Below the pieces are notes generated by a model. The model had not been told where the DNA came from. It made no database searches and was given only the letters and a program-made list of their open reading frames with translations. A stretch of DNA of 64,000 bases from contig NZ_JAFCJT010000001.1 in the NCBI RefSeq assembly GCF_018130785.1, positions 620,001-684,000 of the forward strand. Reading direction: 5' to 3'. Shown here piece after piece: positions 43,546-64,000 of the stretch; position 1 is the stretch's first letter; each line of letters begins with the position of its first letter. The position numbers were made by a program, and so were the translations under genes. The DNA comes from Bradyrhizobium liaoningense (GTDB taxonomy: Bacteria; Pseudomonadota; Alphaproteobacteria; Rhizobiales; Xanthobacteraceae).

Positions 43546-43651
43546 CAGCGAGTTCCTGATCTTTTGGCGAGGCTGGGGATTGCAGCTTCAAGGGGGTATC
43601 GACGCACGCAGCATAACGCGGTCTTGCGCCGGTTTTCCAGCCAAGCAGATT

Positions 43652-46626: not shown

Positions 46627-46636
46627 CGCAATCCCC

Positions 46637-48217
46637 TCACTCTGCGGAGACGGCGCCATAGCCGCCGCCGCCGCACATCTCGATCGTGACGAGATCGTCT
46701 TGCTGCAACACCAGGTTCGACTTGCCGTCGATCGCGACGTTCGCGCCCTGCCGGACGAGCGAGATGCGGCAGGCCTTGCCAGGTTCGCCGCCCTGCATTC
46801 CAAACGGCGCAATCACCATGCGCTCGATGCAGGTGGTCAGGTGCATCGAGGGTGCGAGGATGCGATAGGTGCGAACCGAGCCGTCACCGCCGCGGTGAGC
46901 GCCAGCACCACCTGAATTCCAGCGAATAGCCTGCTGCTCGAGCCGGACCGCGTAGTTCGCCTCGATCACCTCGACCGGCGTGTTCGAGGTATTGGACAGA
47001 TGCACCCGCGTCGCCGACATGCCGGCCCGGTCGTGCCGCGCGCCCTCGCCGCCGCCGTGGACCTCGTAGAGCATCTTCCACGAACCGTTCTGCCGCGGCT
47101 CGGCAAAGAACAGCACGCCCGCGGTGGTCGCCCCGCCGGCCGACAGTCGCTCGGGAATGGTGTCCTGCATCGCGCGAAAAATCGCATCGACGATGCGCAT
47201 GGAGGTCTCGTGGTTGCCGGCGGCAACGGACGCCATCCAGCCCGGCTCCAGGATCGAGCCCGGACGCGTGATGATGGTCAACGGCCGGAGCGCACCGGCA
47301 TTCTGGTGCATGTCGCGCCCGCTCATGATGCGCGCGGCATAGGCGACGGCCGAGCGCGCCATGAACGGCGTCGTGTTGCAGAAGTTCGAGACGCGGTCGC
47401 AGCTTCCGGAGAGGTCGAAGGTGGCCTCGTCGCCGCGAATGGTGATCCTGACGTGGATGCGGGCGGGTGCGTTGTTGACGCTGCCGTCGTCGAGATGATC
47501 TTCGCCTTCGTAGACGCCGTCCGGCAGCGCACGCAGGGCCTCGCGCATCTCGAACTCGGAGAGATCGTGCAGGCGCGATTGCGTCGCCGTGAACACCGCC
47601 TTGCCGTGCTCGCGGCAGAGCTCGACGATGCGCTTCTCGCCGGCCTTGGTTGCCGCGATCTGGGCGAGCAGATCGCCCTCGCAGGATTCGGGGTCGCGAA
47701 CGTTGGCCTTGAGCAGCTGCACGATCGGCGCGCTGACGCCGGCCGCGGTGGCGATCAGTACCGGCGGAATCCGCATCGCCTCCTGAAAGGTGTCGATGGC
47801 TTTTGCGAAATAGCTGCCGGGCCAGGTGCCGCCGATGTCGGGCCAGTGCGCGAGGCTCACCGCGAACGCCACGATCTCGCCGTCGAAGAAGACCGGGCGC
47901 ACGACCTTGACGTCGTTGAGATGATTGCCGCCGAGCGGACCGACATTGTAGATCACGACGTCGCCATCGTTCAGGCTGTCGCGCGGCATCACCTTCAGCA
48001 ACTCTGGAATGGTGTAGGCCATCGCGCCGAGATGGATCGGGATGTCGCGGCCCTGTCCGACCAGGCCGCCATGGCCGTCGGTGATCGCGGACGAGAGGTC
48101 GCCGGCCTCGCGCAGCAGCGGCGAGCGCGCCGAGCGCGTCATCACCAAGCTCATCTCCTCGGCCGCGGCGGAAAGCCCGTGCCGGATGACCTCGACGACA
48201 AACGGATCGAGCTTCAT
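46637..48217 (-). CDS. hyuB: Hydantoinase B/oxoprolinase-family protein
   Basis: The 526-residue HyuB-type subunit has E-E-M-S-L-V-M-T-R-S-A-R-S-P near the start, G-H-G-G-L-V-G-Q-G-R-D-I-P and N-D-V-K-V-V-R-P in the first third, and a glycine-rich end, E-M-C-G-G-G-G-Y-G. With HyuA it forms ATP-dependent ring-opening amidohydrolases (N-methylhydantoinase, 5-oxoprolinase) or acetone/acetophenone carboxylase-type complexes. It overlaps hyuA by 4 bases (ATGA). Confidence 0.88.
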   Translation of the reverse strand: MKLDPFVVEVIRHGLSAAAEEMSLVMTRSARSPLLREAGDLSSAITDGHGGLVGQGRDIPIHLGAMAYTIPELLKVMPRDSLNDGDVVIYNVGPLGGNHLNDVKVVRPVFFDGEIVAFAVSLAHWPDIGGTWPGSYFAKAIDTFQEAMRIPPVLIATAAGVSAPIVQLLKANVRDPESCEGDLLAQIAATKAGEKRIVELCREHGKAVFTATQSRLHDLSEFEMREALRALPDGVYEGEDHLDDGSVNNAPARIHVRITIRGDEATFDLSGSCDRVSNFCNTTPFMARSAVAYAARIMSGRDMHQNAGALRPLTIITRPGSILEPGWMASVAAGNHETSMRIVDAIFRAMQDTIPERLSAGGATTAGVLFFAEPRQNGSWKMLYEVHGGGEGARHDRAGMSATRVHLSNTSNTPVEVIEANYAVRLEQQAIRWNSGGAGAHRGGDGSVRTYRILAPSMHLTTCIERMVIAPFGMQGGEPGKACRISLVRQGANVAIDGKSNLVLQQDDLVTIEMCGGGGYGAVSAE

Positions 48218-50223
48218 GCGACCCTCCGCGTCAGGAACAGATTGCCTGATACATCAGGCTTTGCCTGCCAGCCGGGTGGGACCACCACCGTGGACCAGGC
48301 GTCTTCGATGATGGCGGGGCCGCTGACGATGTCGGTCAGCGCGGCGCGATCAATGATGGCAGTCTCGATCTCGTGGAGGCCATCGAACGAGCAGATGCGC
48401 TTGCCAGTGGACACCGCCCTCACCGCGGTCGCCGGACGGCCCACGACGGTCGTTGACGGACGGCGCGCCTGCACGCGTACGGATTCGATGACGCAGGCCT
48501 CGCTCGTCGCATAACCGAACAGCTCGTGATGCCGCGCCAGAAAGTGCGTCTTGAGCTTGGTCACGTCGAGCGGCAAAACAAACGGAACCGGGATGGCATC
48601 GTTCTGCGCCGCATAGCGCATCAACGCCACCAGTTCGACCTGAATCTCCGCCTTGGCAACGCCGTTGGCGATCAGCGGCGCCGAGGCATCGGCGATCAGC
48701 GTCCCGATCCGGTCCGACGCGCGAGCGATATCGATACCGTCGAGGGCAGCGCGAAGCGTCTGCTGCTGGAGGAAGCTGAAATCGGCGGTGAGACAGCCCA
48801 GCGCGGAAAACGCGCTCGATGCGCTGGGCACGACAACCTCTGCAATTCCGTAGAGATCGGCCAGACCGGCGGCATGCATCGGGCCACCGCCGCCGAATGC
48901 CAGCAGCGTGCAGTCGCGCCCGTCGATGCCGCGCTCGACCGTGACGCGGCGCAACGCGCGGGCCATCGTGGCGTTGGCGACCTTGATGATGCCGAGTGCG
49001 GTTTCGGTCAGGCTCAGCCCAAGTGCGCGCGCGATCGGCGCGACGACACGCTTGGCTGCCTCGATGTCGATGCCGATGCGGTCGCCAAGTTTCGTCTCGG
49101 GATTGAGATAGCCGAGCACGGCGTTGGCGTCGGTGATGGTCGGCTCGGTGCCGCCGCGACCGTAGCAGGCAGGCCCCGGCTCGGAGCCGGCGCTCTCCGG
49201 CCCGACCGTGAGGCCGCCGGGACCGTTGCGCACGACCGATCCGCCGCCCGCCCCGATGGAATGAACCGCGAGCATCGGCTGGCGCAGCGGCTTATCGCCG
49301 AGCATGCGGCCGTCGGTCATCTCCGCCTGGCCATCGACGATCAGGCAGACGTCCGTCGTGGTGCCGCCCATGTCGAACGTCAGCATGCGCGATGTGCCGA
49401 GCTGGCGCGCGATGCTGACGGAGGCCGAAACGCCGGCGGCCGGGCCCGACATTGCCATCACTAGCGGTCGCCGCTTCACGGCCGAGATCGGGATCATCGC
49501 GCCGGCGGAGTGAAACACCTGCAAGCCGGGGCCGATCGGCAGCCGCTGTTCCAGCTCGCTCAGATATTCCACCGCGATCGGCATCGCCGCCGCGTTGAAC
49601 ACGGTGGCCGAGGTCCGCTCATATTCGCGCGCTTCGGGATTGACCTCGTGCGACAGCGACACATGGGCGACGACGCCCTTGAGCCGCTCGCCGAGCATCT
49701 TTTCGTGGACGGGATTGGCGTAGGCGTGAAGGAGCGCGACCGCGACGCTCTGCACCCCGGTCTGCTTCAGCCACGCCAGCAGACGTTCGATCTCCGCGTC
49801 GTCGAGCGCCTTCAGCACGCGCCCCTCGTGATCGAGGCGCTCGGCGAGTCCAAAGCATCGCTCCGGCGGCACCAAAGGCTGGGATTTCGGCGGAATGTCG
49901 AGACGATAGAGATCGCGGCGGCGATAGCGCGCGATCTCCAGCACGTCGGCAAATCCGGCCGTAGCGACCAGCGCCACCTTCGGCAGCCGGTTCTCGACGA
50001 TGGCGTTGGTGACGCGCGTGGTGCCGTGGACGAAGCGCTTGACCTCGCTCTTGCGCAGGCCGACCGCCTCGATCGCCTCCAGCATCGCCTGAACGGGCGC
50101 GTCGGGGCGCGATGGCACTTTTGCGATCCGCGCCTCCGCGGAGCCGCGCCGGATCGCGATGATGTCGGTGAAGGTTCCACCGATATCGGTGCCGACTTCC
50201 CAATGATCTTCGGAGGAGCTCAT
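48214..50223 (-). CDS. hyuA: Hydantoinase A/oxoprolinase-family protein (ATPase subunit)
   Basis: The product is 669 residues. The N-terminal Hydant_A_N domain has V-G-T-D-I-G-G-T-F-T-D-I near residues 10-21. The hydantoinase_A domain has F-D-M-G-G-T-T-T-D-V and G-P-E-S-A-G-S-E-P-G-P-A-C-Y-G. It is the actin-like ATPase partner of HyuB. The set is first in its operon, downstream of a MocR regulator. Oxoprolinase, N-methylhydantoinase and carboxylase family members cannot be separated by sight; no third carboxylase subunit is present. Confidence 0.88.
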   Translation of the reverse strand: MSSSEDHWEVGTDIGGTFTDIIAIRRGSAEARIAKVPSRPDAPVQAMLEAIEAVGLRKSEVKRFVHGTTRVTNAIVENRLPKVALVATAGFADVLEIARYRRRDLYRLDIPPKSQPLVPPERCFGLAERLDHEGRVLKALDDAEIERLLAWLKQTGVQSVAVALLHAYANPVHEKMLGERLKGVVAHVSLSHEVNPEAREYERTSATVFNAAAMPIAVEYLSELEQRLPIGPGLQVFHSAGAMIPISAVKRRPLVMAMSGPAAGVSASVSIARQLGTSRMLTFDMGGTTTDVCLIVDGQAEMTDGRMLGDKPLRQPMLAVHSIGAGGGSVVRNGPGGLTVGPESAGSEPGPACYGRGGTEPTITDANAVLGYLNPETKLGDRIGIDIEAAKRVVAPIARALGLSLTETALGIIKVANATMARALRRVTVERGIDGRDCTLLAFGGGGPMHAAGLADLYGIAEVVVPSASSAFSALGCLTADFSFLQQQTLRAALDGIDIARASDRIGTLIADASAPLIANGVAKAEIQVELVALMRYAAQNDAIPVPFVLPLDVTKLKTHFLARHHELFGYATSEACVIESVRVQARRPSTTVVGRPATAVRAVSTGKRICSFDGLHEIETAIIDRAALTDIVSGPAIIEDAWSTVVVPPGWQAKPDVSGNLFLTRRVA

Positions 50224-50648: not shown

Positions 50649-52196
50649 TCAGCTTCCCTTTATTGTACGAACAGTAAGAGAGGATATTGCCGGGTCGGAT
50701 GGTGCGTTGCGGGAGCCGCTGCTGAGGCAGGTCGCGATTCTCGCAAGCAACGGCACGGCATCCTCGACGTGCAGGCGCCCGTAGCCGAACACCAGGCCCT
50801 GCCGCGTCGGCTGCTCCAGAAAATTCTGCGACAGAGGCTGCACGTGAATGCCGGCCTGCTTCAGGAGTGCGGCGGCCTCGCGGTCGCTCATCCGCGCCTG
50901 CATCGCGTCGGTGAACAGAGCCACGAGGTGCAGCCCGGTGACGGCGGAGGATACGCTCAGATCGTCGGGCATCAGCGTAGCGATCGCATCGATCAACGCC
51001 TTGCGTCGCTCCGCATAGAGCCGCCGCATTCCGCGCAGATGCCGCAGCAAATGCCCTTCCCGCATGAACTCCGCCAGAGCGAGCTGTCCGATGCCGGAGG
51101 TGTGGACGTCGATCCGCGCACGCCCCTTCGAGAAGCCGTCGATGAAATGCCGGTTCGCGACCATGTAACCGAGCCGCAAATTCGGCATCATGATTTTCGA
51201 GAAGGTGCCAAAGTAGATCACCCGGCCCTCGCGATCGAGCGAGCGCAAGGAGGCGATCATGCTGTCCTGATGCCTGAACTCCGAATTGTAATCGTCCTCG
51301 ATCACCCAGACGTCGTTCTTGTTGGCCCAATCGAGCAGCTCGAGCCGCCGCTCCAGCCGCATGCTGACGCCGAGCGGATATTGATGCGACGGCGTGACCA
51401 CGATCAGTCGCGCGCACGGTGCGCGCCGGATCCCTTCGGAGACGACGAGACCCTTGTCATCGACCGGAATTGGGACGAGCTTCGCACCTGCCGCCGTGAG
51501 CGCCCAGCGCGCCTCGACGAAGCCGGGTTCCTCGACCCAGACCTCGTCGCCGGGATCGAGGATCATGCGGCTGCAGAAATCGAGCGCCCCCGATGTGCCT
51601 GAGGTAACGACGACCTCTTCGGGTGAACAAACGAGACCGCGCACGGAGCCGAGGAAGTTCGCGATTTCGTTGCGCAGCCGCGGATGACCTTCGGGGGGAA
51701 GATCGAGACATTCCTGCTCTTTCGGATTTTGCCAGGACTGGCGCAGCAGGCGTGACCATTCCCTGAACGGGAAGGTCGAGATGTCAGGCGCGCCCGGGCT
51801 GAATTCCGAGGGCCAGTTGGTCTCGTAGTCGAAGGCAAGCAGCGAGCGCCAGCGCTCCGACATGTGGGCGGGCTTGGGTGCAGGCGCGGTGGCTGACGGA
51901 GGCTCCGCATGCGGCGTCGCGACCGATGCGACCATGACGCTGCCGCGCGGCGTCGATTCAAGGTAGCCCTCCGCATAGAGCAGATCCCAGGCGGTCAGCA
52001 CCACCGTGCGCGAACAGCCCAATTCGCGCGCGATCTCGCGCGATCCCAGAAACTGCGTCCCGGCCGGAAAGGCGCGGCGCAAAATGCCATCGCGGATGTG
52101 CGCCGCGATCTGCAGGTGCAGCGGCACGGCCGACGCCCGGTCGATATGCATCCCGGCAAGGGACACGCGCTTGCTCGGGTGACGGCTGTTGTCCAT
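50649..52196 (-). CDS. MocR-family transcriptional regulator (GntR HTH + aminotransferase-like domain)
   Basis: The product is 515 residues. The N-terminal GntR winged HTH spans about residues 20-90 (H-I-R-D-G-I-L-R-R-A-F and G-S-R-E-I-A-R-E-L-G-C-S-R-T-V-V). A proline-rich linker follows, then a fold-type I aminotransferase domain with T-S-G-T-S-G-A-L-D-F and the PLP-site region T-F-S-K-I-M-M. MocR proteins sense PLP plus an amino compound and control amino acid or amine catabolism. Placement before hyuA, and codirectional with it, makes it the likely regulator of the hydantoin island. Confidence 0.88.
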   Translation of the reverse strand: MDNSRHPSKRVSLAGMHIDRASAVPLHLQIAAHIRDGILRRAFPAGTQFLGSREIARELGCSRTVVLTAWDLLYAEGYLESTPRGSVMVASVATPHAEPPSATAPAPKPAHMSERWRSLLAFDYETNWPSEFSPGAPDISTFPFREWSRLLRQSWQNPKEQECLDLPPEGHPRLRNEIANFLGSVRGLVCSPEEVVVTSGTSGALDFCSRMILDPGDEVWVEEPGFVEARWALTAAGAKLVPIPVDDKGLVVSEGIRRAPCARLIVVTPSHQYPLGVSMRLERRLELLDWANKNDVWVIEDDYNSEFRHQDSMIASLRSLDREGRVIYFGTFSKIMMPNLRLGYMVANRHFIDGFSKGRARIDVHTSGIGQLALAEFMREGHLLRHLRGMRRLYAERRKALIDAIATLMPDDLSVSSAVTGLHLVALFTDAMQARMSDREAAALLKQAGIHVQPLSQNFLEQPTRQGLVFGYGRLHVEDAVPLLARIATCLSSGSRNAPSDPAISSLTVRTIKGS

Positions 52197-52376: not shown

Positions 52377-53810
52377 TTACACGCTCGCCTGCGTCACGAA
52401 CTTCGTGTTCAGATACCCCTCGATCGCCTCGAGGCCGCCTTCTGAGCCGTAGCCGGAATCCTTGGTGCCGCCGAACGGCACTTCCGGCAGTGCGAGACCG
52501 TGATGGTTGATCGAGACCATGCCGCTCTCGACGTCGGCTCCGATCGCCTGCATCGTCTTGGTCGAGGTGGTGTAGGCATAGGCCGCGAGGCCGTAAGGCA
52601 GACGGTTCGCCTCGGCCACGACCTCGTCGTAGCTGCGGAACGAGGTGATCGGCGCCAGCGGGCCGAACGGCTCTTCGTTCATGATGCGCGCATCGCGCGG
52701 CACGTCGGTGATCACGGTCGGCTCGAAGAAGAAGCCTTCATTGCCGATGCGTTTGCCGCCGGCCTGGATCTTGGCGCCGCGCTGGACGGCGTCGGAGACC
52801 AGACCTTCCATGGCGTCGACACGGCGCGGGTTCGCCAGCGGACCCATGCGGGTATCCTTGTCGAGGCCGTTGCCGACCTTGAGGCTCTTGGCCGCCGCGA
52901 CGAACTTGTCGACGAAGGGCTGGTAGACGCTTTCGTGCACAAGGAAACGCGTCGGCGAGACGCAGACCTGGCCGGCATTGCGGAACTTGTTGGCCGAGAG
53001 AATCTTGGCGGCGTTGTCGAGATCAGCGTCCGCGAACACGATCGCCGGCGCATGACCGCCGAGCTCCATGGTGACGCGCTTCATGTGCAGGCCCGCGAGC
53101 GCGGCCAGATGCTTGCCGACCGCGGTCGAGCCCGTAAAACTGATCTTGCGGATGATCGGATGCGGAATGAGATATTCCGACACTTCCGACGGCACGCCGA
53201 ACACCAACTGGACGACGCCGGCCGGAATGCCGGCATCCGCATAGGCCCGCACCAGCTCCATGCAGCTCGCGGGTGTTTCTTCCGGGCCCTTGACGATGAT
53301 CGAGCATCCCGCAGCGAGCGCGGCCGAGATCTTGCGCACCGCCTGGTTGATCGGGAAATTCCAGGGCGTGAACGCGGCGACCGGGCCGACCGGCTCCTTG
53401 ATCACGAGCTGGGAGACGTTGCCCATCCGCGGCGGCACGATGCGGCCATAGGCGCGGCGGGATTCTTCCGCGAACCAGTCGATGAGGTCGCCGGCCAGCA
53501 TGGTCTCGCCCTGCGCTTCCACGACCGGCTTGCCCTGCTCCATGGTCATCACGGGCGCGATCTCGGCGGCGCGCGAGCGGATGATGTCGGCGGCCTTGCG
53601 CATCAGCTTGTAGCGGTCAAATGGCGAGGTCTTGCGCCAGATTTCGAAGCCGGCCTTGGCGGCCTCCAGCGCACGGTCGAGGTCCGCGCGCGAGGCATGC
53701 GGGGTCTTGCCGATCGGCTGGCCGGTGGCGGGATTGAGGATGTCCTCCGACTTGCCGGACGTGCCGTCGGTCCACTCGCCGGCGATGAACATTTGAACTT
53801 TCGGGTACAT
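52377..53810 (-). CDS. NAD(P)-dependent aldehyde dehydrogenase (succinate-semialdehyde dehydrogenase type)
   Basis: The product is 477 residues from ATG 53810, which has AGGAG at correct spacing; the frame is open further up. Catalytic residues are Asn151 (P-W-N-F-P), Glu249 (M-E-L-G-G) and Cys283 (G-Q-V-C). By sequence it resembles GabD. Its neighbours suggest oxidation of an aldehyde in the furan block (furfural to furoate), or alternatively of a semialdehyde from the hydantoin island. It is 101 bases after the GMC stop, on the same strand. Confidence 0.8.
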
Positions 53811-53911
53811 CCCTGGTGTCTCCTGCATGATTTCGGCGGCGATGAGCATTGGCGCCCGCCGCCTAATAAGTGGGCGCAGAGCTACACCGAAAGGCGCCCG
53901 GCGAAAAGGGA

Positions 53912-55609
53912 TCAATGATGCCGCAGCAGCGCATCGCTGATCTTCTCGGCCGCCATGATCACGGGGATGTTGGTATTGGCGGTCGGCAGAAGCGGCATGA
54001 TCGAGGCGTCCGCCACGAAGATGTTCTCGCTGCCGATCACCCTGCCCTCGGAATCGACCACCGCCATGGGATCGTCGGGATCTCCGATGCGGCATGTCCC
54101 CACCGGATGCCAGACGCCGAACACGCTCTGCCGCACGAAGGCTTCCAGCGCGCGGTCGTCGGCCAGCGTCGCCTGGAAGGCGGTGCCGTTGAGCAGCACG
54201 AGCCGGATCAGGAACTGCCGGAGACCCGCGGGCACGTCGAGCATCGGGCCTAGGATGGAGGCGACGATGCGGTTGGCCGTGCTGTACCGGCTCAGCCGCT
54301 TGATGCGCGGTGAATAGGAGGCCGGGAAGAAATCGCCCGCCTCCGGGTTGAGCGCGGGATGGACGACAAGCTTTGCGAGCAGCCGGACAGAGGCGACGAG
54401 CCGTTCGAGATCGCGCGGGTCGGATAGCAGGTTGAAATCAACGACCGGATAGGTCTTGGGATCGGGCGTCGCCAGCTTTAGCGATCCGCGCGAATACGGG
54501 CGGTTGCACCAAAGGAAATAGAGCCCGAGCCGCCTGCCGAGCGCGTGCCAGCCGCCGCGGGCCGAGGCCGTGATGTACATGTCGGAGGCATCGCAGCCCG
54601 GATGTCCCGATGAGAAGCGCATCGCCGCAAAATTGGGGCGCCGCCGGGCCAGCGGCAGCCGCAGCCGGCGCGGCAGATATTGGCAGAAGGTCAGCGCGGG
54701 ATGATCGCGCAGATTGCTGCCGACGCCTGAGAGATCAATGGCCACGGGAATGCCGAGCGCCTGCAGCGCGGCTCCCGGGCCGATGCCCGCCCGCATCAGG
54801 ATCGCCGGCGATTGCAGCGCGCCTGCGGTGAGGATCACCCGGGCGGCGCCGACGGTGAATTTCTGTCCACCACGCGAGACGGTCACACCCGTCGCGCGGC
54901 GGCCTTCGAGCTGAAGCCGCTCGACCTCGCTGTCGGCCCAGATGGTCAGGTTCGGCCGCGCCCGCGTCGCCGCGTCGAGATAGCCGGCGGCGGTCGAGAC
55001 GCGCCGATCGTTGCGGTTGGAGAAGGCCGGCGGAAAGATGCCGTCCTCGAAGTCCGCGTTCTGGTCCTTCCGGAACGGCAAACCGGTCGCCGACAACGCC
55101 CCTCCGACGGCCTTACCAAACTGCGGCATCGCCTCACGCGCGATGCGGCGGATCGGGATCGGACCGTGCTTGCCATGCAGCGGGCCGTCGAAATCGAGAT
55201 CAGTCTCGAGCTTGAGGAAATATGGCAGCACGTCCGCCCAGCCCCAGCCGCGTGCGCCGTGATCGCGCCATTCGTCATAGTCGCGCGGCAGGCCTCGGTT
55301 GGCCGACTGCACGTTGATGCTGGAGCCGCCGCCCATCACCCGGCCCTGCTCATAGCCGCGGATGACAGGCTTGCCTTCGGCATTGCGGCCGGCCGCAGCC
55401 GTCATGCCCGGCCAGATGTATCGGTCGCCGTAGAACAGCGTCATCGGATAGCTGTCGAGGATTTCGGGCGGCGTTGCCTCAGGCGGCGTGTCCATCCCGG
55501 CTTCGATCAGAAGCACGCGGCGGCTCCCATCCGCAGAAAGCCGATTGGCGAGCACGCAGCCCGCCGACCCGCCACCGACGATCACATCGTCGAAATGCAG
55601 CTCATCCAT
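53912..55609 (-). CDS. GMC-family FAD oxidoreductase (candidate furfuryl alcohol/furfural oxidoreductase)
   Basis: The product is 565 residues from ATG 55609 with GAGACGGGA upstream; a TTG 18 bases earlier is a less likely start. The N-terminal FAD motif is V-G-G-G-S-A-G (11-17). [11 protein letters not shown] and the C-terminal active-site His in V-W-H-P-V-G-T-C-R are GMC hallmarks, with P-T-A-N-T-N-I-P at the end. Choline dehydrogenase and HMF oxidase (HmfH) belong here. Adjacency to a furoate transporter and hmf genes makes a furan alcohol/aldehyde the favoured substrate, by inference. Confidence 0.75.
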
Positions 55610-55672
55610 TCCCGTCTCGTCGTACAATTCGATGGACCGGCGCGGCTGCAGGTGCCGCCGCGCCGATTTAGC

Positions 55673-57004
55673 TCAGCGGAAATTACCCTTGGTCTCGGGG
55701 ATCACGATCGCTCCGATCAGGTAGATCACGAACACGCCGACCGCGAAGTAGGCCAGCGACATCGGAATCTCCGCCGGGCTGCCGCTCACCAGCGAGACGA
55801 AAGTCGGCATCATGCCGCCCAGCGCAAAGCCGATGTTCCAGGACAGGCCCGTGCCGCTCGCGCGCAGCGCAGTCGGGAAGCGCTCGTTCAAGAAGATCAG
55901 CACCGGCGCATAGCCCGCATTGCCGATGAAGGCGATGGCCAACGCATAGAGCGTGATCTGCGTCGTGTCCTTGGTGGCCGCGAGGTTGAGATAGCACAGA
56001 GGCAGCAGCACGGCTGCCAGGACGCCGATCAGGAGGAACGTCTTCTTGCGGCCGATGCGGTCGCTCAGCGCGCCGACGAGCACCGCGGAGAAGAACGCCG
56101 AGACGCTCGCTCCCATCAGGATCAGCGACGAGGTCTGGTTCGGGACCGCGTTGATGACCTTCAGGAAGCTCGGCAGATAGCCCGATGTCAAATAGTAGCC
56201 TGCACCGCCACCGAAGGTGATGAGCAGGTTGACCAGCAAGACGCCGCGATACTGTCCGGAGAACACGTCCTTGACCGGCGCCTTCGAGACTTTCGCCTGC
56301 TTGTTGCCCTGCTGACGCTTGAGCTCCTTGAAGTACGGGGACTCCTCGAGGTTGCGGAAGATGAACCAGCCGAGCAGCGAGCTCAGCAGCCCCGAGAAGA
56401 ACATGAAGCGCCAGCCCCACACCGCGAACGCGTCGCCGGGGAAGATCGAGGACGTGATCAGGAAGATGAAGGACGCGAGCAAAGCGCCGATGCCGGCGCC
56501 GCCGCCGCCGACTAGGCCCGACATTGCGCCGCGCCACTGTGCCGGCACCGATTCCGTGCCGATCGTGTGGGTGGAGGCCACGACGCCGCCGACGAAGATA
56601 CCCTGCACCAGGCGCAGGATCAGGAAGATAATCGGCGCGACCACGCCGACCTGCGCGATGGTCGGCAGCAGGCCGAATGCGGCCGTGCTGACACCGACGC
56701 CGACGATGGCGATCAGCATGGCCTGCTTGCGGCCGTGCACGTCGGCATAATGTCCGAACACCGCCGAGCCGAGCGGCCGCATCAGCAGCGTCACGGCGAA
56801 CGAGCCGTAGACCGCAGCCAGCGACAGCGCCGCGTTGCTCGACGGGAAGAATAGCGCGCCGACGACCGGCGCCACGTAGAGCAGAATGAACAAATCAAAC
56901 AGATCGAGCGCCCATCCGAGCACCGACGCGATGATCGCATTGACCATCTGCTTGTTATCCGCCGATGCTTGTGCACCTGCGACCGGCATATCCATCTCAG
57001 CCAT
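55673..57004 (-). CDS. MFS metabolite:H+ symporter (probable furoate transporter)
   Basis: The 443-residue product has 12 predicted helices. It has G-W-A-L-D-L-F-D-L-F in helix 1, the MFS loop R-P-L-G-S-A-V-F-G-H-Y-A-D-V-H-G-R-K, and L-S-D-R-I-G-R-K in the second half. This is the aromatic acid/sugar-acid symporter group. The gene lies between hmfE and the GMC gene, in the position a furoate permease takes in known hmf clusters. The substrate is inferred from context. Confidence 0.8.
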   Translation of the reverse strand: MAEMDMPVAGAQASADNKQMVNAIIASVLGWALDLFDLFILLYVAPVVGALFFPSSNAALSLAAVYGSFAVTLLMRPLGSAVFGHYADVHGRKQAMLIAIVGVGVSTAAFGLLPTIAQVGVVAPIIFLILRLVQGIFVGGVVASTHTIGTESVPAQWRGAMSGLVGGGGAGIGALLASFIFLITSSIFPGDAFAVWGWRFMFFSGLLSSLLGWFIFRNLEESPYFKELKRQQGNKQAKVSKAPVKDVFSGQYRGVLLVNLLITFGGGAGYYLTSGYLPSFLKVINAVPNQTSSLILMGASVSAFFSAVLVGALSDRIGRKKTFLLIGVLAAVLLPLCYLNLAATKDTTQITLYALAIAFIGNAGYAPVLIFLNERFPTALRASGTGLSWNIGFALGGMMPTFVSLVSGSPAEIPMSLAYFAVGVFVIYLIGAIVIPETKGNFR

Positions 57005-57032
57005 TTTGTTTTACCTCCCCCGTTTGAGTAGC

Positions 57033-57062
57033 GCCGCGGTTCGCGTCATTGCGAACCGCGGC
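57033..57062. terminator. Perfect 12-bp stem-loop between hmfE and the MFS gene
   Basis: GCCGCGGTTCGC-GTCATT-GCGAACCGCGGC has a 12-base perfect stem and a 6-base loop, in the 73-base gap between hmfE and the transporter gene. No T-run follows on the minus strand, so mRNA stabilisation or processing between pathway and transporter genes is as likely as termination. Confidence 0.5.
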
Positions 57063-57077
57063 AGTTCTGTCGCTTGA

Positions 57078-57884
57078 TCAGCGGCCGGTGAATTTCGGCG
57101 GACGCTTGGCGTTGAAGGCCTCGACGCCCTCCTTGAAGTCTTCCGACTGGCGCAGGCGGCTGTAGCAATGCCCCTCGAGCTCGATCGCGATGGCGAGCGT
57201 CGAATCCTCGGTGTCGTTGAGGAGCTTCTTGGCGGTGCGTTGCGCCAGCGGCGAGAAGGTGCGGAGCTCGTCGACCAGCTTGTCGGTCGCCTTCTCCAGC
57301 TCGGCATCCGGCACGCACTCGGTCGCGATACCCCACTCATAGGCCTGCTTCGCCGTAATGCGCTTGGATCGCATCACGATGTCCTTGGTGCGGGTGATGC
57401 CGACCATCTTCTGCAGCCGCGCCGAGCCGCCGGAACCCGGGATCTGGCCGAGCTTCTGCTCCGGCAGCGCGTATTGCGTGGTCTCGGAGGCGATGCGGAA
57501 ATCGCAGGCCAGCGACAGCTCGAAACCGACGCCGAAGCAATAGCCGCGGTTGGCGACGATGACAGGCTTGGCGCAGCGCGCGGGTGCCGCGATGTTCCAG
57601 GCGAGCTTGGAGACGTGCTCGGGGCTTGCCTCCATGAAGCCGCCGATATTGCCGCCGCTGGAGAAGTGCTCGCCCTCGCCGCGCACCACGATGATGCGGA
57701 CGCGCGGATCCTCGTCCAAGGTCTCGAAGGTCAGCCGCAGCTGGTCGCGCTGCGGCATCGCCACGACGTTGTAGGGCGGACGGCCCAGGATGATGTCGGC
57801 GCGCTCATGCGCCTCGTCGATCTCGACCTTGAACCCGTCGAGCTTGGCCAGCCGGGGATCGGCAAATGTGTAGGGTGACGGCAT
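57078..57884 (-). CDS. hmfE: Enoyl-CoA hydratase-family protein, probable 2-oxoglutaroyl-CoA hydrolase
   Basis: The product is 268 residues from ATG 57884, preceded by GGAAGG. Crotonase fold: H-F-S-S-G-G-N-I-G-G near residue 66 and C-F-G-V-G-F-E-L-S-L-A-C-D form the oxyanion hole, and P-E-Q-K-L-G-Q-I-P-G-S-G-G follows. In furoate clusters the crotonase-type member HmfE releases 2-oxoglutarate from its CoA thioester. It sits directly after the CoA ligase gene, in the hmfABCDE order. By sequence alone it could also be a BadK-like hydratase. Confidence 0.72.
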   Translation of the reverse strand: MPSPYTFADPRLAKLDGFKVEIDEAHERADIILGRPPYNVVAMPQRDQLRLTFETLDEDPRVRIIVVRGEGEHFSSGGNIGGFMEASPEHVSKLAWNIAAPARCAKPVIVANRGYCFGVGFELSLACDFRIASETTQYALPEQKLGQIPGSGGSARLQKMVGITRTKDIVMRSKRITAKQAYEWGIATECVPDAELEKATDKLVDELRTFSPLAQRTAKKLLNDTEDSTLAIAIELEGHCYSRLRQSEDFKEGVEAFNAKRPPKFTGR

Positions 57885-57913
57885 CTGTGCTTCCTTCCGT
57901 TGATGATTGATGA

Positions 57914-59458
57914 TCAGGCCGCGTCCGACGGCGGCAGGCGCTCGGCCTCGTATTCTCCGGCGACCAGCAGTCGCCGCAGCAGCTTGCCGACCGGCGATTT
58001 CGGGATCGCGTCGACGAAGACGTAGCGGCGCGGCCGCTTGAAATTGGCGAGGCCGGAGGTCCGGCAGAACTGCTCCAGCTCGACATCGGAGACGGCGCGG
58101 TTGCGCTTGACGAAGGCGGCGACGACCTTGCCCCACTTCTCGTCGGCGACGCCGACCACCGCGACCTCGTCCACGGCGGGATGCAGCGACAGGCAGCTTT
58201 CGATCTCGACCGGCGAGACGTTCTCGCCGCCGGTGATGATCATGTCGTCAACGCGGCCGGTGACGAACAAATCGCCGTCGGGATCGACGAAGCCGGTATC
58301 ACCCGTAAAATACCAGCCCTCGCGCAGGGACTTGGCGTCCGCCTCGGGACGGCGCCAATAACCTTCGAAGGACTCGTCACCTGCGAGCGTGGCGATGATC
58401 TCGCCCTCTTCGCCGACTGCGGCGAGATCCGCGATCGACCGCGCGCCGATGCGGACGACCTTTACGTGCTGGTTCAGCCCCGCCTTTCCGGCCGAGCCGG
58501 GCTTGGCCGCGGCGTTCTGGTCGATCGTGAACGTGTAGATCTCGGAGCTGCCGTAGTGGTTGACGAACAGCTCCGGCTTGAACGCCTCATTCAGCTTCTT
58601 CAGCAGACCATCGGTCATTGACGCGCCGGCGAAGCCGAGCTTGCGCACGCTGGAGACGTCGGTTTTGGCAAAGGCCTCATGATGGACGAGGTCGTGATAG
58701 AGCGTCGGCACCAGATAAAGATTGGTGATCTCTTCCTTCTCGATCAGCGCCAGCGCCTGGCGGCTGTCATAGCGCGGCAGGCAGATGAAAGTTCCCCCGA
58801 TCAACGACATCGCCAGCAGCGAGCGGACGCCCATGGTGTGGTAGAGCGGCATCACGCCGAGCGTGCGCTCGCCGCGGCCGTAGAGGTTTTGCGCGACATG
58901 GGCGATCGCAGCGGCCCGCTCGGCGCGGTGCCGGCGTGGCACGCCCTTCGGGCGCGAGGTCGTGCCCGAGGTGTAGAGCATGATCGACCAGGCATCGGTG
59001 CCGACGCGCGGCTCGGCATCCGGCGCGCTGTCCTTGATCAGATCGGCGAAGCTGGTCGCCTCGCCTGCGCCGGGATCGACGGACACACGCAGCAACTTGC
59101 CTGATAGTGTCGAGCCCTGCACCGCCTCGGCGGAGATGTCCTGATAGATAATCGCGCAGGCTTCGGCGTTCTCGACGCAGTAATCGAGCTCGTCGGCCTT
59201 GGCGCGCCAGTTGATCGGCGTGATCACGAGACCTGCGAACTGGCAGGCCCAGTGCAGATTCGCGGCTTCCCAGCGGTTCTGCAGCAGCGTGACAACGTGA
59301 TCGCCGGGCTTGAGGCCGAGGCGGTCGAACGAGGCAACGAGCGAGGAGATCTTGTCGTACCATTGGCGGTAGGTCAGGCGGAGATCGCCGTCGACCAATG
59401 CAATGGCGTGGGGATCGCGCGCGGCGCTGGCCATGAAGCTGCTGGCGAGATCAAGCAT
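57914..59458 (-). CDS. hmfD: AMP-dependent acyl-CoA ligase, probable 2-furoyl-CoA synthetase
   Basis: The product is 514 residues from ATG 59458, overlapping the [2Fe-2S] subunit gene by 8 bases. The P-loop Y-T-S-G-T-T-S-R-P-K-G, N-H-Y-G-S-S-E, W-Y-F-T-G-D-T-G-F and the catalytic lysine in S-P-V-G-K-L-L-R-R mark an ANL ligase. It would activate 2-furoate with ATP and CoA so that the following molybdenum enzyme can hydroxylate furoyl-CoA. The gene order is the main evidence for the furoate assignment; benzoate-type acids remain possible. Confidence 0.74.
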   Translation of the reverse strand: MLDLASSFMASAARDPHAIALVDGDLRLTYRQWYDKISSLVASFDRLGLKPGDHVVTLLQNRWEAANLHWACQFAGLVITPINWRAKADELDYCVENAEACAIIYQDISAEAVQGSTLSGKLLRVSVDPGAGEATSFADLIKDSAPDAEPRVGTDAWSIMLYTSGTTSRPKGVPRRHRAERAAAIAHVAQNLYGRGERTLGVMPLYHTMGVRSLLAMSLIGGTFICLPRYDSRQALALIEKEEITNLYLVPTLYHDLVHHEAFAKTDVSSVRKLGFAGASMTDGLLKKLNEAFKPELFVNHYGSSEIYTFTIDQNAAAKPGSAGKAGLNQHVKVVRIGARSIADLAAVGEEGEIIATLAGDESFEGYWRRPEADAKSLREGWYFTGDTGFVDPDGDLFVTGRVDDMIITGGENVSPVEIESCLSLHPAVDEVAVVGVADEKWGKVVAAFVKRNRAVSDVELEQFCRTSGLANFKRPRRYVFVDAIPKSPVGKLLRRLLVAGEYEAERLPPSDAA

Positions 59459-59969
59459 CTGACGTCTCTTTTTTGGATGAAGCGAGCTGGGCGGCGGCTT
59501 CGAGTGCCGCCTGGATGATCGGGGTGTAGCCGGTGCAGCGGCAGATATGCCCACTGAGGAGATCGCGGATCTCCGCCTCGGTCGGCGCCGAATTCTTCGC
59601 GAGATAGTGGTCGAGCGACATCAAAATGCCGGCGGTGCAGAAGCCGCACTGGAGCGCGTGGTTGCGGCGAAACGCCTGCTGCAGCACGCCGAGCCGGTCG
59701 GCCGAGGGTGCGAGCCCTTCGACCGTCTTCAGCTCGCAGCCGTCGACCTGCGCGGCGAGCGTGAGACAGGAGCGGGTCAGCATGCCGTCGACAACGATGG
59801 TACAGGCGCCGCAGACACCGTGCTCGCAGCCGACATGGGTGCCCGTGGCTCCCAGCTGATGGCGCAGGAAATCGGAGAGCAGCATGCGCGGCTCGGCCTC
59901 GCCCTCGACGGGCTTGCCGTTCAGCGAGAAACGGACAGCATGACGCTGATCTGCCTTGAGCCGGCTCAT
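59451..59969 (-). CDS. hmfC: [2Fe-2S] subunit of molybdenum hydroxylase, probable 2-furoyl-CoA dehydrogenase
   Basis: This 172-residue CoxS-type subunit binds two clusters: a plant-ferredoxin-like set in C-E-H-G-V-C-G-A-C plus a later Cys, and a C-terminal set in C-G-F-C ... C-R-C-T-G-Y. It passes electrons from the molybdenum site to FAD. It overlaps the FAD-subunit gene by 4 bases. Confidence 0.83.
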   Translation of the reverse strand: MSRLKADQRHAVRFSLNGKPVEGEAEPRMLLSDFLRHQLGATGTHVGCEHGVCGACTIVVDGMLTRSCLTLAAQVDGCELKTVEGLAPSADRLGVLQQAFRRNHALQCGFCTAGILMSLDHYLAKNSAPTEAEIRDLLSGHICRCTGYTPIIQAALEAAAQLASSKKETSDA

Positions 59970-60781
59970 TGCAGCACCTCGCCGATCAGGTCGCGGCCGA
60001 TCATACGGACGAGGTCACGGCGGTAACGCGCGGTGGCGTGGACGTCGTCGCGAGCACCGAGCTCGTAGGCGAAGGCGTTGAGGGCATCGTCGAGCGCAGT
60101 CCCTTCGAGCCGCGGCCAGTCGCGCGCGGTCGGCACGTCGGCAACGCCGCCGACGGCGAGACGCACGCCTGTCGGAATCTTCATCGCGGCACAGGCGACG
60201 ATGGCGAAATCGCCGTGCCGGCGCGCGACCTCGCGGAACGCGAAACGCGATCCCCTGGTAACCGGCAGCGAGATCCCCTCGATCAGCTCGTCGTCGCTGC
60301 GTGCCGTCAGCATCATGCCGGCGAAGAAGTCCTTGGCCGCCACGCGCCGCCGCCGCTTGGCGCTGCGCAACAGCACCTCGCCGCCGAGCGCGACCAGTGT
60401 CAGTGGCATCTCGGCACTGGGATCGGCATGCGCGAGCGAGCCGCAGATGGTGCCGCGGCTGCGAGTCTGCACGTGCCCTACCCACGGCAAAGCCAGCGCC
60501 ACCAGCGGCAACGCTTCGGCGAGGTCCGGCCATGCCAGCAAATCGGCCTGGCGCACGCCGGCGCCGATGACGACGGCGTCCTTTTGCCGTTCGATCTTGC
60601 GCAGCTCTTTCAAGCGCATAATGTCGATCAGCAGTTTTGGTTTGGCGAGACGCATGTTGAGCATCGCCATCAGCGACTGCCCGCCGGCGAGAACGCGTGC
60701 GTCGCCGCCTTGCTGAGCAAGACCTTCGAGGACGTCGCTAACGCTCTCGGCACGGAGATAATCGAATGCGGGCGGCTTCAT
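59966..60781 (-). CDS. hmfB: FAD-binding subunit of molybdenum hydroxylase, probable 2-furoyl-CoA dehydrogenase
   Basis: The 271-residue CoxM-type protein has A-G-G-Q-S-L-M-A-M-L-N-M-R at 32-44 and T-I-C-G-S-L-A-H-A-D-P-S-A-E, the two FAD-contacting loops, then a C-terminal CO_deh_flav_C domain. It receives electrons from the [2Fe-2S] subunit. The second glycine of the usual T-I-G-G loop is preceded by Cys here. It overlaps the large-subunit gene by 4 bases. Confidence 0.83.
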   Translation of the reverse strand: MKPPAFDYLRAESVSDVLEGLAQQGGDARVLAGGQSLMAMLNMRLAKPKLLIDIMRLKELRKIERQKDAVVIGAGVRQADLLAWPDLAEALPLVALALPWVGHVQTRSRGTICGSLAHADPSAEMPLTLVALGGEVLLRSAKRRRRVAAKDFFAGMMLTARSDDELIEGISLPVTRGSRFAFREVARRHGDFAIVACAAMKIPTGVRLAVGGVADVPTARDWPRLEGTALDDALNAFAYELGARDDVHATARYRRDLVRMIGRDLIGEVLQ

Positions 60782-63700
60782 CGGCGCCCCCCGAACAGGC
60801 TGGCGATCTTCGCCAGCACCGCGAACAGCGAAAAACCGCCGCCCTCCGCACCACCGCCGCCGGCCTTGCGGGCGAGCGCGGTGAAGAACTGGCCGATGAT
60901 GACGCGCGTCGCGCCATCGAGCAGGCGGCCGCCGATGCTGGCGACCTTGCCGCCGATGGCAGCGTCATAGCTGTAGGTGAGCTTTGTGCCGCCGCTGCCG
61001 TCAGGCGCGAGCGTGATGCGTCCTTCGGCGTTGCCGAAGCCAAGCGCCCCCGTGGCGCCGCCGCGCAAGGTGACTGCGCGCGGCGGATCGAGATCGAACA
61101 ACTCGACATCGGCTCGATAGCGGCCACTGACAGGGCCGATGCCGAGCGTGACGTCGGCGCGGAAATGCGTGTCGGTGATCTTGTCGACGCTCTGGCAGCC
61201 GGGAATGACGGATTGCAGCGTGGCGGGATCGAGCAGCATCGCCCAGACCTGCTCGGGCGCGCCTTTCACAGAAGCCTCGCCCTCGCCGCGCAGCCGCCGA
61301 TCGCCCTCACGCACAGGTGCAGCGGTCGCACCGCCTGCGGGAGGCGGCGGTTCGGCGCCGCGCACAAGTTCCGCCAGTCGAGCCGGCACCAGCGGCAGCG
61401 TGATGTCGGCAACGCCGAGCGCATCCGCGACCGCATTGGCAAGGCACACCGGCGTGGACATGCAATTGCCCTCGCCGACACCCTTTGCGCCGAGCGGCGT
61501 GAACGGCGACGGCGTCTCCATGTGGATGATCTCAGGCTCCGGCACCTCGGTGGTGGTCGGCAGCAGATAGTCGGCAAGCGTTCCCGTCAGAAAGCTGCCG
61601 TCGTCGGCGTAGGCATATTCCTCATAGAGGGCGGCGCCGAGCGCCTGCGCAAAGCCGCCGCGGATCTGGCCGTTGACCATGCCGGGATGCAGGATGGTGC
61701 CGCAATCGTGCATGGTGACGTAGCGGTCGATCCGCGTCTCCAGCGTCGTGCGGTCAATCTCGACGCCGCAGAAGTCGAAGATGAAGCCGTGGCAGAGCGA
61801 GGAGTTGATGCGGTCGTCCTCGTCGGGCGGCGTCAGCTCCGGCGGCGTCCAGAACACGGTTTCGCGGATGGTCTGGCCGGCATCATCAGGCAGCGAGCCC
61901 GGCGACCAATGGCTGAGGGCGGCGACACGCGCGAACGCGATCCGGTTCTCCGGATTGTGTTTTGATGCGACGAAACCTTTTGCAAACACGATGTCGGCGG
62001 CTTCGACGTTCAACTGGCCGGCGGCGATACGCGCAAGCCTGCCCGCGACGCGCTGGGCTGCGATCTTCGCCGTACCTGCCACCGCCGCGGCGAACCGGCT
62101 GGCGTAGTTGCCCGAGGCGATCGACCAGGCATCCTTGGCCGTGTCGATCTCGGTATTGACGCGGATATCCCTCGGCTGGAGGCCGAAGACGTCCGCGACG
62201 ACCTGCGACAGCACGGTGCGATGGCCTTGCCCCTGCGGCACGGATGCGACGTGAACCGTGACGCTGCCGACTGGATCGAGCCCGACGGTGGCGGTTGCCT
62301 GCGCGCCGTTCTTCGGCCCGGCCTTGCGGCGCTCGGCCGCCGTCAGCACGGTGGTGATATAGCCCATGTTGGAGACGCTGGGCTCGACCACCGCGGTGAA
62401 GCCGATGCCGTAGAGACGTCCCTGCGCGCGAGCTTCGTCACGCTTCGCCTTCAGTTCGGCAAGTCTGCCCTGCTCCACGGCACGCGCGACGGCTCCCTGG
62501 TAGTTGCCGGAGTCGAGCAATGCGCCGGTGGCGGTGCGATAAGGAAACGCGCCGGCATCGATCAGATTGCGCTTGATGACATCGAGCGGATCGAGGCCAA
62601 GGCCGATCGCGATCCGCTGCACCAGACGCTCCAGCGCGAAATAGACCTGCGGTCCGCCAAAGCCGCGGTTGAGCCCCGTCGGCGTCTTGTTGGTGACGAC
62701 GACGCGGTTGCGAATCTTGACGTGACGGATGTCGTAGGCACCGGTCAGATTGCCGTGCATGCGGTAGAGCGTCGCCGGCTCGGGCGCCCGCAGATGCGCG
62801 CCGCAATCCTCGACCTGGTCCCAGTCGAGCGCGAGGATTTTTCCGTCGGCTGCGACCGCCGCCGACAACGTCGTCGCGCGATTGGTCGCCGACACCGAGG
62901 CGGTGAGATGTTCGAGCCTATCCTCGATCCACTTCACCGGCTTACCCGTGACGCGCGCGGCGGCGGCAATCAGCACGATATAGGGAAACACGCCCTGCTT
63001 GACGCCAAAGCTGCCGCCGGAATCCGGCGGCGTGCGCAGCCGCAGCCGATTGCCCGGCACTTTCAGCGCGCGCGCAATCACGGTGTGGATGCTGAACGGG
63101 CCCTGGAAATTTGCGAGAACCTCGTAGGCATCCTCGCCGGCGTCATGCGAAGCGACGACGCCGTAGGTTTCGATCGGCGTACAGGAGTTGCGGGGATATC
63201 TGATATCGATTGAGAAGCGATGCGGCGCCTCCGCAAAGGCCTTCTCAGAGTCGCCGTAGCGGAACGCGCGCTCGCTGGCGAGATTGCCGGGGAAGCCGTC
63301 ATGCAGCACCGGCGCGCCCGGGGCGATCGCGCCAAGCGGATCGACGACGGCCCCGCGCGGGCGATATTCGACATTGATGAGTTCGGCGGCGTCTTCGGCG
63401 CGGGCGCGGTCGGTCGCCACAACCACAGCGACGGGCTCGCCGACATAGCGCACGCGGTCGATCGCAATCGGCCAGCACTCAACCGGCGCCTTCACGCCGA
63501 CAACAAGGGTTGTCGTGACCGCCTTGACGTCCTCGCCGGTCAGAACCGCAGCAACACCCGGCAGGCGCTTTGCGGCTTCAGTATCGATCGAGACAATATC
63601 GGCATGTGCGTGCGGCGAACGCAGGATCGTCGCGTGCAGCGTGCCCGGCAGGACGCCGAGATCGTCGATGAAGCGGCCACGACCGCTGAGCAGCGCGGCA

Positions 63701-63789
63701 TCCTCGATGCGCTCGATCGAACGCCCGACCCACGGTCTGTCGCCACCTTGATCAACCGAATTTGCGGATTGAACCGCAGCCTGCACCAT
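60778..63789 (-). CDS. hmfA: Molybdenum large subunit fused to a CoxG (SRPBCC) domain, probable 2-furoyl-CoA dehydrogenase
   Basis: The product is 1003 residues. Residues about 1-800 are a xanthine-dehydrogenase-family large subunit: G-G-S-F-G-V-K-Q at 258-265, R-G-F-G-G-P-Q at 375-381, and the base Glu773 in G-V-G-E-G-N. The CO dehydrogenase active-site motifs are absent. After a proline/alanine linker, residues about 833-980 are a CoxG-like SRPBCC domain (V-W-A-M-L-L-D-P-A-T-L-Q, V-I-P-G-C-Q) ending in a hydrophobic tail, L-F-A-V-L-A-K-I-A-S-L-F. It would hydroxylate furoyl-CoA at C5. The fused domain may tether the enzyme to the membrane or supply quinone, as proposed for CoxG. GGGAGG lies 11 bases before the start. 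Confidence 0.8.
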   Translation of the reverse strand: MVQAAVQSANSVDQGGDRPWVGRSIERIEDAALLSGRGRFIDDLGVLPGTLHATILRSPHAHADIVSIDTEAAKRLPGVAAVLTGEDVKAVTTTLVVGVKAPVECWPIAIDRVRYVGEPVAVVVATDRARAEDAAELINVEYRPRGAVVDPLGAIAPGAPVLHDGFPGNLASERAFRYGDSEKAFAEAPHRFSIDIRYPRNSCTPIETYGVVASHDAGEDAYEVLANFQGPFSIHTVIARALKVPGNRLRLRTPPDSGGSFGVKQGVFPYIVLIAAAARVTGKPVKWIEDRLEHLTASVSATNRATTLSAAVAADGKILALDWDQVEDCGAHLRAPEPATLYRMHGNLTGAYDIRHVKIRNRVVVTNKTPTGLNRGFGGPQVYFALERLVQRIAIGLGLDPLDVIKRNLIDAGAFPYRTATGALLDSGNYQGAVARAVEQGRLAELKAKRDEARAQGRLYGIGFTAVVEPSVSNMGYITTVLTAAERRKAGPKNGAQATATVGLDPVGSVTVHVASVPQGQGHRTVLSQVVADVFGLQPRDIRVNTEIDTAKDAWSIASGNYASRFAAAVAGTAKIAAQRVAGRLARIAAGQLNVEAADIVFAKGFVASKHNPENRIAFARVAALSHWSPGSLPDDAGQTIRETVFWTPPELTPPDEDDRINSSLCHGFIFDFCGVEIDRTTLETRIDRYVTMHDCGTILHPGMVNGQIRGGFAQALGAALYEEYAYADDGSFLTGTLADYLLPTTTEVPEPEIIHMETPSPFTPLGAKGVGEGNCMSTPVCLANAVADALGVADITLPLVPARLAELVRGAEPPPPAGGATAAPVREGDRRLRGEGEASVKGAPEQVWAMLLDPATLQSVIPGCQSVDKITDTHFRADVTLGIGPVSGRYRADVELFDLDPPRAVTLRGGATGALGFGNAEGRITLAPDGSGGTKLTYSYDAAIGGKVASIGGRLLDGATRVIIGQFFTALARKAGGGGAEGGGFSLFAVLAKIASLFGGRR

Positions 63790-63931
63790 GTCCCGGCATA
63801 CCTCCCGACGCGTTCTTTGACGCGACGGTGACGTTTGTCAGGACAGGCGTGCAGGGCCCATACCGCCCGCTCTCACGACTTACCAAATCGTCTCATTCGA
63901 GAGCGTGCAGCGCAGTATCAGTCCGCAAGAA
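63790..63931. promoter_or_regulatory. Promoter region of the hmf operon
   Basis: This 142-base gap lies between hmfA and the AraC-type gene. An imperfect palindrome, ACGACTTACCAAATCGT, lies at 63875-63891 (six of eight pairs match) and could be a regulator site. No gene is seen. Confidence 0.35.
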
Positions 63932-64000
63932 TCAACCTGCGAGACGCGAGACGTTGCGAAACTCGCGTGGGCTGACGCCGGCATGATCGCGGAAGAACCG
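63932..64000 (-). CDS. AraC-family transcriptional regulator, C-terminal end (cut by window edge)
   Basis: Only the last 22 residues are present, in frame to the right edge and ending with TGA at 63934-63932. F-F-R-D-H-A-G-V-S-P-R-E-F-R is the end of the second helix-turn-helix of AraC/XylS regulators. It precedes hmfA on the same strand and probably controls the furoate operon. Confidence 0.75.
   Translation of the reverse strand, partial: RFFRDHAGVSPREFRNVSRLAG

Follow-up and report, generated by a model that had tools for sequence, protein, structure and literature searches.

The 64,000-bp stretch of Bradyrhizobium liaoningense DNA analyzed here (G000:C1:620001-684000 of an 8.3-Mb genome; in the following "the window") carries a gene cluster for furan catabolism (hmf) on its minus strand. 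Between positions 52377 and 63789, eight genes, each of them an open frame, follow each other in an hmfABCDE-MFS-GMC-ALDH arrangement (ALDH, aldehyde dehydrogenase). The initial annotation had genes, strand and coordinates right and erred in the count, as it spoke of seven genes while its own list gave eight. The fold expected for each gene product is backed by Pfam domains and the gene pairs A-B, B-C and C-D overlap by 4-8 bases, which makes for an operon-like arrangement. A gene for an AraC-type regulator terminates 142 bases upstream of the start of hmfA and spans the window edge, and hmfF and hmfG are located beyond it on the same strand, 0.9-3.0 kb past the edge (Table 1).

The order large molybdenum subunit, FAD subunit, 2Fe-2S subunit, ligase and crotonase-type hydrolase is the same as in Cupriavidus necator NH9 pENH92, and the proteins share 54-81% identity with their NH9 orthologues, in full agreement with the initial assignment as hmfABCDE. 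In our sequence comparison strain NH9 served as a stand-in for Cupriavidus basilensis HMF14. The named relatives of HmfA with 93-96% identity all stem from Bradyrhizobium. From a total of 359 loci we kept 80 named ones, each with HmfA and at most 10 kb of flanking sequence per side; gene counts therein are lower bounds, as the identity cut-offs were of our own choosing and many loci end at contig ends. HmfB is found in 78 of these loci, HmfC in 76, HmfD in 75 and HmfE in 73, and the hmfABCDE order is therefore not due to chance. An AraC-type regulator occurs in 74, HmfF in 52, HmfG in 47, the MFS transporter in 40 and a LysR-type regulator in 39, followed by the Bug-type protein (24), the GMC protein (11), an FAD protein (10), the ALDH (5) and a MocR-type regulator (1). 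The HmfA homologue on a plasmid of Bosea vestrisii (L011:25605-26868) is annotated as two overlapping frames and may be frameshifted.

Among proteins of solved structure, HmfA is closest to carbon monoxide (CO) dehydrogenase (416 bits) and quinoline 2-oxidoreductase (399 bits). The initial annotation had named best hits to CO, isoquinoline, nicotinate or benzoyl-type enzymes as grounds for giving up the furoate assignment. Such a hit is formally what we obtained for HmfA, and we nevertheless do not regard the assignment as refuted, because none of the 44 solved matches bears the name furoyl-CoA dehydrogenase and because the best NCBIfam score reaches just 476 of 950 bits; furthermore, the NH9 orthologue aligns across residues 16-1003. 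HmfA was also considered as a CO dehydrogenase large subunit (CoxL) and rejected as such with 476 of 950 and 446 of 991 bits, i.e. about half the curated cut-off.

The absence of hmfF and hmfG had been noted correctly for the window itself and is explained by the window edge cutting the block. HmfF is a UbiD protein with its best solved match in 6h6v (474 bits), which is HmfF by name (PMC8988006), and the next protein, 7p9q, follows at 217 bits. Its neighbor HmfG is a UbiX-type prenyltransferase (266.6 bits, cut-off 188). Fifty-nine relatives of HmfF were matched, and all 53 that align at the positions in question keep the active-site histidine H305 and R313 (numbering of the protein encoded here, P0010); the latter, eight residues after the histidine, is an arginine that we take to be functionally important. 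A histidine numbered H297 has been described as key to furan specificity (PMC7976604); the histidine of 6h6v aligned with H305 is residue 296 in the chain numbering of that structure. In the hmf clusters of Bosea (L011:11937-12455) and Dinoroseobacter (L014:12780-13256), a gene for a TIGR02444 protein adjoins that for UbiX.

For the GMC protein, 5-(hydroxymethyl)furfural (HMF) oxidase (HMFO; 4udp/6f97) stands out with 467 bits among the best 60 of 68 solved matches, the next relative being pyridoxine 4-oxidase with 223 bits. From the HMFO active-site set given in PMC7414962, Asn102, Trp369, Trp466, His467 and Asn511 are kept as N98, W366, W499, H500 and N544 (P0007). We are thus dealing with a GMC protein of the HmfH/HMFO type equipped with catalytic His and Asn, and its initial designation as a furan alcohol/aldehyde oxidase is well taken. 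Orthologues with at least 71% identity are present in 22 of 265 genomes of the genus (those of 46-49%, among the matches listed, were set aside) and reside beside HmfA in 21 of these 22. According to PMC7414962, nine of 41 HMFO-like sequences are from Bradyrhizobium.

At the level of the genus, HmfA is encoded in 63 of the 265 genomes (E <= 1e-250) and HmfF in 55 (E <= 1e-100), that is in about a quarter and a fifth of those sampled. All 55 HmfF genomes have both genes on one contig, 1.06-5.6 kb apart, with a spacing of 1.06-1.23 kb in 44 cases. Eight of the 63 HmfA genomes lack HmfF at the threshold used.

Table 1. Features of the hmf block and its surroundings. Positions are those of the window; equivalents beyond its edge were obtained from contig L010 (window position = L010 position + 56000). 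Identities refer to C. necator NH9 pENH92 unless stated otherwise.
Feature	Position	Strand	Basis and remarks
hmfA, 2-furoyl-CoA dehydrogenase, large Mo subunit (about residues 20-810) with CoxG domain (837-976) and basic hydrophobic tail	60778..63789	(-)	Pfam, NH9 orthology (58%), solved relatives
hmfB, furoyl-CoA dehydrogenase, FAD subunit	59966..60781	(-)	Pfam; 54%
hmfC, furoyl-CoA dehydrogenase, 2Fe-2S subunit	59451..59969	(-)	Pfam; 63%
hmfD, 2-furoyl-CoA synthetase (AMP-binding ligase)	57914..59458	(-)	Pfam; 62.5%
hmfE, crotonase-fold 2-oxoglutaroyl-CoA hydrolase	57078..57884	(-)	Pfam; 80.5%; function from literature on C. basilensis
MFS transporter, probable furan-acid importer	55673..57004	(-)	Pfam; 63%; 61% to MFS of Geobacillus pHTA426
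hmfH-like GMC oxidase, candidate oxidase for HMF, furfural and 5-hydroxymethyl-2-furoic acid (HMFCA)	53912..55609	(-)	59%; HMFO residues
ALDH, probably part of neighboring hydantoinase locus, not hmf	52377..53810	(-)	Solved relatives, empty site
AraC-type regulator, 3' end	63932..64000	(-)	Runs to equivalent 64771 (L010:7932-8771)
hmfF, UbiD type, 473 residues	equivalent 64896-66317 (L010:8896-10317)	(-)	Beyond window; 58%
hmfG, UbiX type	equivalent 66346-66966 (L010:10346-10966)	(-)	Beyond window; 55%
LysR-type regulator, divergent	equivalent 67126-68109 (L010:11126-12109)	(+)	Beyond window
FAD protein, siderophore-interacting type	equivalent 68279-69034 (L010:12279-13034)	(+)	Beyond window
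Bug-type (TctC/Bug) binding protein	equivalent 69165-70283 (L010:13165-14283)	(+)	Beyond window
hmf insert, part inside window	53933..64000		Runs to equivalent 70308 (L010:14308); empty-site comparison, three genomes

We consider it very probable that this complete-looking cluster provides a route from HMF, 2,5-furandicarboxylic acid (FDCA), 2-furoate and compounds of the furfural type to 2-oxoglutarate. The sequence itself shows the gene order, the folds and that HmfF and GMC are linked with hmfA, while we infer substrate steps, transport and regulation from orthologues and from literature on pathway roles and cluster logic (PMC6604932, PMC6678421, PMC12064950). The HmfH-like GMC oxidase would oxidize HMF at both its alcohol and its aldehyde group, yielding FDCA, and would convert furfural to furoate. 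HmfF, using prenylated flavin mononucleotide provided by HmfG, would decarboxylate FDCA to 2-furoate, which HmfD would activate to 2-furoyl-CoA. Hydroxylation at C5 would be catalyzed by HmfABC and, after tautomerization and lactone opening, HmfE would release 2-oxoglutarate. Furan acids would be imported by the MFS and Bug proteins, and the AraC and LysR proteins would exert regulation. As hmfF and hmfG are located shortly beyond the window edge and the GMC protein resembles HMF oxidase, use of HMF and FDCA is predicted for the genome, and the initial statement that it is not supported has to be abandoned.

Several points weigh against this reading. Neither HmfA nor, among the best 25 models each, HmfD and HmfE reach an NCBIfam cut-off, we did not encounter a literature report of hmf function for the stand-in strain NH9, and a gene for lactone opening was not identified, though no dedicated search for one was made. 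Where HMFO has Met103 and Val367, the GMC protein carries Val and Phe, changes that may alter its substrate preference. In addition, HMFO from Bradyrhizobium arachidis could not be produced in Escherichia coli (PMC7414962), so that no HMFO activity is known in the Bradyrhizobium branch. It is also conceivable that the cluster serves the degradation of furoate and furfural only and that the decarboxylase acts on another aromatic acid. The eight HmfA genomes without HmfF suggest that a furoate-only version exists in relatives; here, however, hmfF is part of the same gene run, its product retains the histidine key to furan specificity and scores twice as high with HmfF as with the next UbiD protein, which renders such a restriction very unlikely. 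Pathways analogous to that for furoate exist for thiophene-2- and pyrrole-2-carboxylate, and molybdenum hydroxylase, ligase and hydrolase might act on a close analogue of this kind. The substrate is indeed not fixed by solved structures, as the best relatives of HmfA are CO dehydrogenase and quinoline 2-oxidoreductase, and the missed NCBIfam cut-offs leave the same latitude. Linkage to HmfF and to a GMC protein that resembles HMF oxidase as well as the kinship to hmf clusters with a reported role in furoate degradation speak against it, and we regard this explanation as still more improbable than the previous one.

The ALDH, originally thought to supply furoate, probably stands outside of the hmf pathway and belongs to the neighboring hydantoinase locus. 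Among solved proteins it is closest to alpha-ketoglutaric semialdehyde dehydrogenase (632 bits), followed by a chain simply named aldehyde dehydrogenase (629 bits) and succinate-semialdehyde dehydrogenase (545 bits), and it shares 29% identity with the ALDH beside the NH9 cluster. Close orthologues (at least 95% identity; matches of 77-79% were set aside) are present in 40 of the 265 genomes, 20 with and 20 without HmfA. We inspected six ALDH loci that are not adjacent to hmf genes. In three of these (G011, G057 and G248) the flanks of the hmf block meet, with 55, 55 and 53 bp between them; hydantoinase is encoded on one side and ALDH on the other, with no hmf gene in between. The surroundings of the ALDH in G147, G245 and G263 differ from this site. 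Compared to the empty site, the insert, which here keeps the hydantoinase gene and the ALDH gene apart, comprises 16,376 bp (window-equivalent 53933-70308). Its left junction at 53932/53933 lies within the 3'-terminal part of the GMC gene, because the last codons of this gene (ending in ALLRHH; 53912-53932) are part of the sequence shared with the empty site. Two of the three empty-site genomes, G011 and G057, hold the hmf block elsewhere.

We then compared eight genomes chosen from the 13 that contain the GMC gene but no ALDH beside HmfA; these are ALDH-less by selection, and what counts are their common block ends. The block common to all eight starts with the GMC stop (53919-53924). In six of them its other end coincides with the Bug stop (70281-70284), in the other two the match to Bug breaks off earlier, and the stretch with the FAD protein is missing in all eight. 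The left flanks (2.7-4.5 kb) represent more than one context: those of L137 and L138 match, as do those of L139 and L141, and the remainder are without long matches. The hmf block thus behaves like one unit that occurs at several chromosomal places. No integrase or transposase was recognized by eye in the flanking frames of three other sites, one of which has a right flank without a listed frame; a family search was not part of this inspection.

Membership of the ALDH in the furan pathway as furfural or formyl-furoate dehydrogenase nevertheless has to be considered. ALDH and HmfA co-occur in 20 genomes, with 9.5 expected (hypergeometric 7e-5, relatedness not corrected), the two genes lie within 15 kb of each other in 13 genomes, five of which are devoid of GMC, and in Pseudomonas umsongensis GO16 an ALDH, PsfA, serves the pathway (PMC12064950). 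On the other hand, half of the ALDH genomes do without HmfA, hydantoinase and ALDH genes are neighbors at hmf-free sites in three of six other loci, the common block starts at the GMC stop in the selected genomes, and the closest solved relative as well as the low identity to the NH9-side ALDH point elsewhere. The ALDH does not travel with the hmf genes; what remains is a weak co-occurrence above chance which we think is explained by the shared site. Taken together, a function in furan degradation appears unlikely, though not as unlikely as the two alternatives discussed for the cluster as a whole, and we maintain the placement of the ALDH with the hydantoinase locus.

This locus extends over window positions 39754-50223 on the minus strand. 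Its genes encode a dihydropyrimidinase/hydantoinase, a protein resembling flavin reductases, an amidase akin to beta-ureidopropionase, a CoA ligase, an aminotransferase and hydantoinase B and A; the genes for a MocR-type regulator and the ALDH come next. These genes probably form one hydantoin/pyrimidine catabolic locus. Gene names in this region were given by reading, with family searches for MocR and ALDH only. The MocR-type regulator (50649-52196; PdxR, 397.5 bits, cut-off 320) sits between ALDH and hydantoinase A, and this place is kept in three of eight related stretches. On the far side of the hmf block (L010:14310-20000), a second dihydropyrimidinase-like gene, an Asp/Glu-racemase-like gene and genes for a PepSY-type protein and a TonB-type receptor are present, again named by reading, and it is this side that meets the ALDH side in the three empty-site genomes.

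A further peculiarity concerns HmfA itself. Its residues 837-976 constitute a CoxG domain (Pfam COXG, 97.9 bits, gathering cut-off 22.2) with 2pcs, 2ns9 and CoxG 8uds (E 7e-8) as solved relatives. Three COXG domains were found in the genome, and only that of HmfA resides in a frame of large-subunit size. In 78 of the 80 loci the closed hmfA frame runs through CoxG into a short tail; the remaining two end at a contig end inside CoxG. The fusion also occurs in C. necator, P. phymatum and Dinoroseobacter shibae, and in the proteobacterial clusters examined large subunit and CoxG form one polypeptide; in Geobacillus pHTA426 the large-subunit gene is directly followed by coxG as a gene of its own. 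By analogy, CoxG domain and basic hydrophobic tail may hold furoyl-CoA dehydrogenase at the membrane and connect it to the quinone pool. CoxG recruits CO dehydrogenase to the membrane, and a coxG mutant of O. carboxidovorans still grew on CO but more slowly (149 h versus 21 h; PMC4240915). Binding of menaquinone by CoxG has been reported (Kropp et al., 2025, as cited in PMC13240472). CoxG also anchors glycerol-3-phosphate dehydrogenase, and such enzymes reduce quinone without CoxG (PMC11962113), which argues for CoxG as a mere anchor. A net charge of at least +2 is found in all 72 distinct HmfA tails. It is composition alone that stands out: amphipathicity was not apparent when hydrophobic moments were compared with shuffles (mean z 0.26; 72 distinct tails from 82 proteins), and z is negative in nearly all Bradyrhizobium-type tails including that of the HmfA encoded here. 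By our own cut, 59 of 68 distinct HmfA tails are both basic and hydrophobic, but 34 of 55 HmfB tails are classed equally; six other proteins yielded 0 to 7. AlphaFold predicted HmfA with moderate confidence (predicted local distance difference test score 71.3, predicted template modelling score 0.60) and with a weak terminal helix. We therefore put forward only tentatively, as an idea that may well prove wrong, that the fused CoxG with its basic hydrophobic tail acts as a quinone adaptor which docks cytoplasmic HmfABC on the membrane and hands electrons over to the quinone pool; respiration would then be fed directly by furan hydroxylation. If true, this would indicate where furoyl-CoA dehydrogenase physiologically delivers its electrons, an acceptor left unnamed in the literature passages used. 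Our literature search, for which subscription papers were mostly out of reach, showed among the papers listed none recognizable as dealing with a CoxG-HmfA fusion.

The locus illustrates that a catabolic assignment at a window edge can err both ways, as two genes were missed and one was probably wrongly included. The analysis also shows that the block occupies several chromosomal places within the genus. In hydrolysates of plant biomass, furfural and HMF act as inhibitors, and FDCA serves as a monomer for plastics; hmf clusters with a candidate HMF oxidase are therefore useful parts.

Among known systems, C. necator NH9 pENH92 shares with the locus described here the hmfABCDE order followed by the MFS gene and the presence of UbiD, UbiX, GMC, Bug-type and LysR proteins. 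Its HmfA is of the same length class and aligns through the CoxG part, and its GMC gene has 1740 bp, the length given for hmfH of C. basilensis (PMC12064950). In contrast to NH9, hmfG-F-araC-ABCDE-MFS-GMC are all on one strand here, and hmfA is preceded by the gene for AraC where NH9 has that for LysR. An AraC gene (55%) directly upstream of hmfABCDE is also found in D. shibae pDSHI01, together with HmfF (57%) and HmfG (69%), but ABC and TRAP transporters are annotated nearby and neither the MFS nor the GMC protein finds a match in the stretch. Pseudomonas umsongensis GO16, compared by its description in PMC12064950, has hmfABCDE, HmfF, a UbiX-type accessory protein and both LysR and AraC, the gene for the latter being listed as regulator of the lower pathway (Table 2 therein). 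Unlike the organism studied here, it uses the dehydrogenases PsfG and PsfA and its cluster is described without an HmfH-type enzyme. The active-site residues of Methylovorus HMF oxidase (4udp) are kept in the GMC protein, where the segment separating the two aligned stretches is longer by about 36 residues. In CO dehydrogenase (8uem, 8uds), as in HmfA, a molybdenum large subunit is combined with a CoxG partner, but CoxG is fused to the large subunit here and the proposed substrate is a CoA ester. Our literature search did not retrieve a report of growth of Bradyrhizobium on furoate. A 2010 paper on C. basilensis and a 2021 survey reportedly list hmf genes in Bradyrhizobium. HMFO-like Bradyrhizobium sequences, that of B. 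arachidis included, are in print (PMC7414962) and pathway and cluster logic have been published as well, so that the cluster belongs to an already known kind of hmf system.

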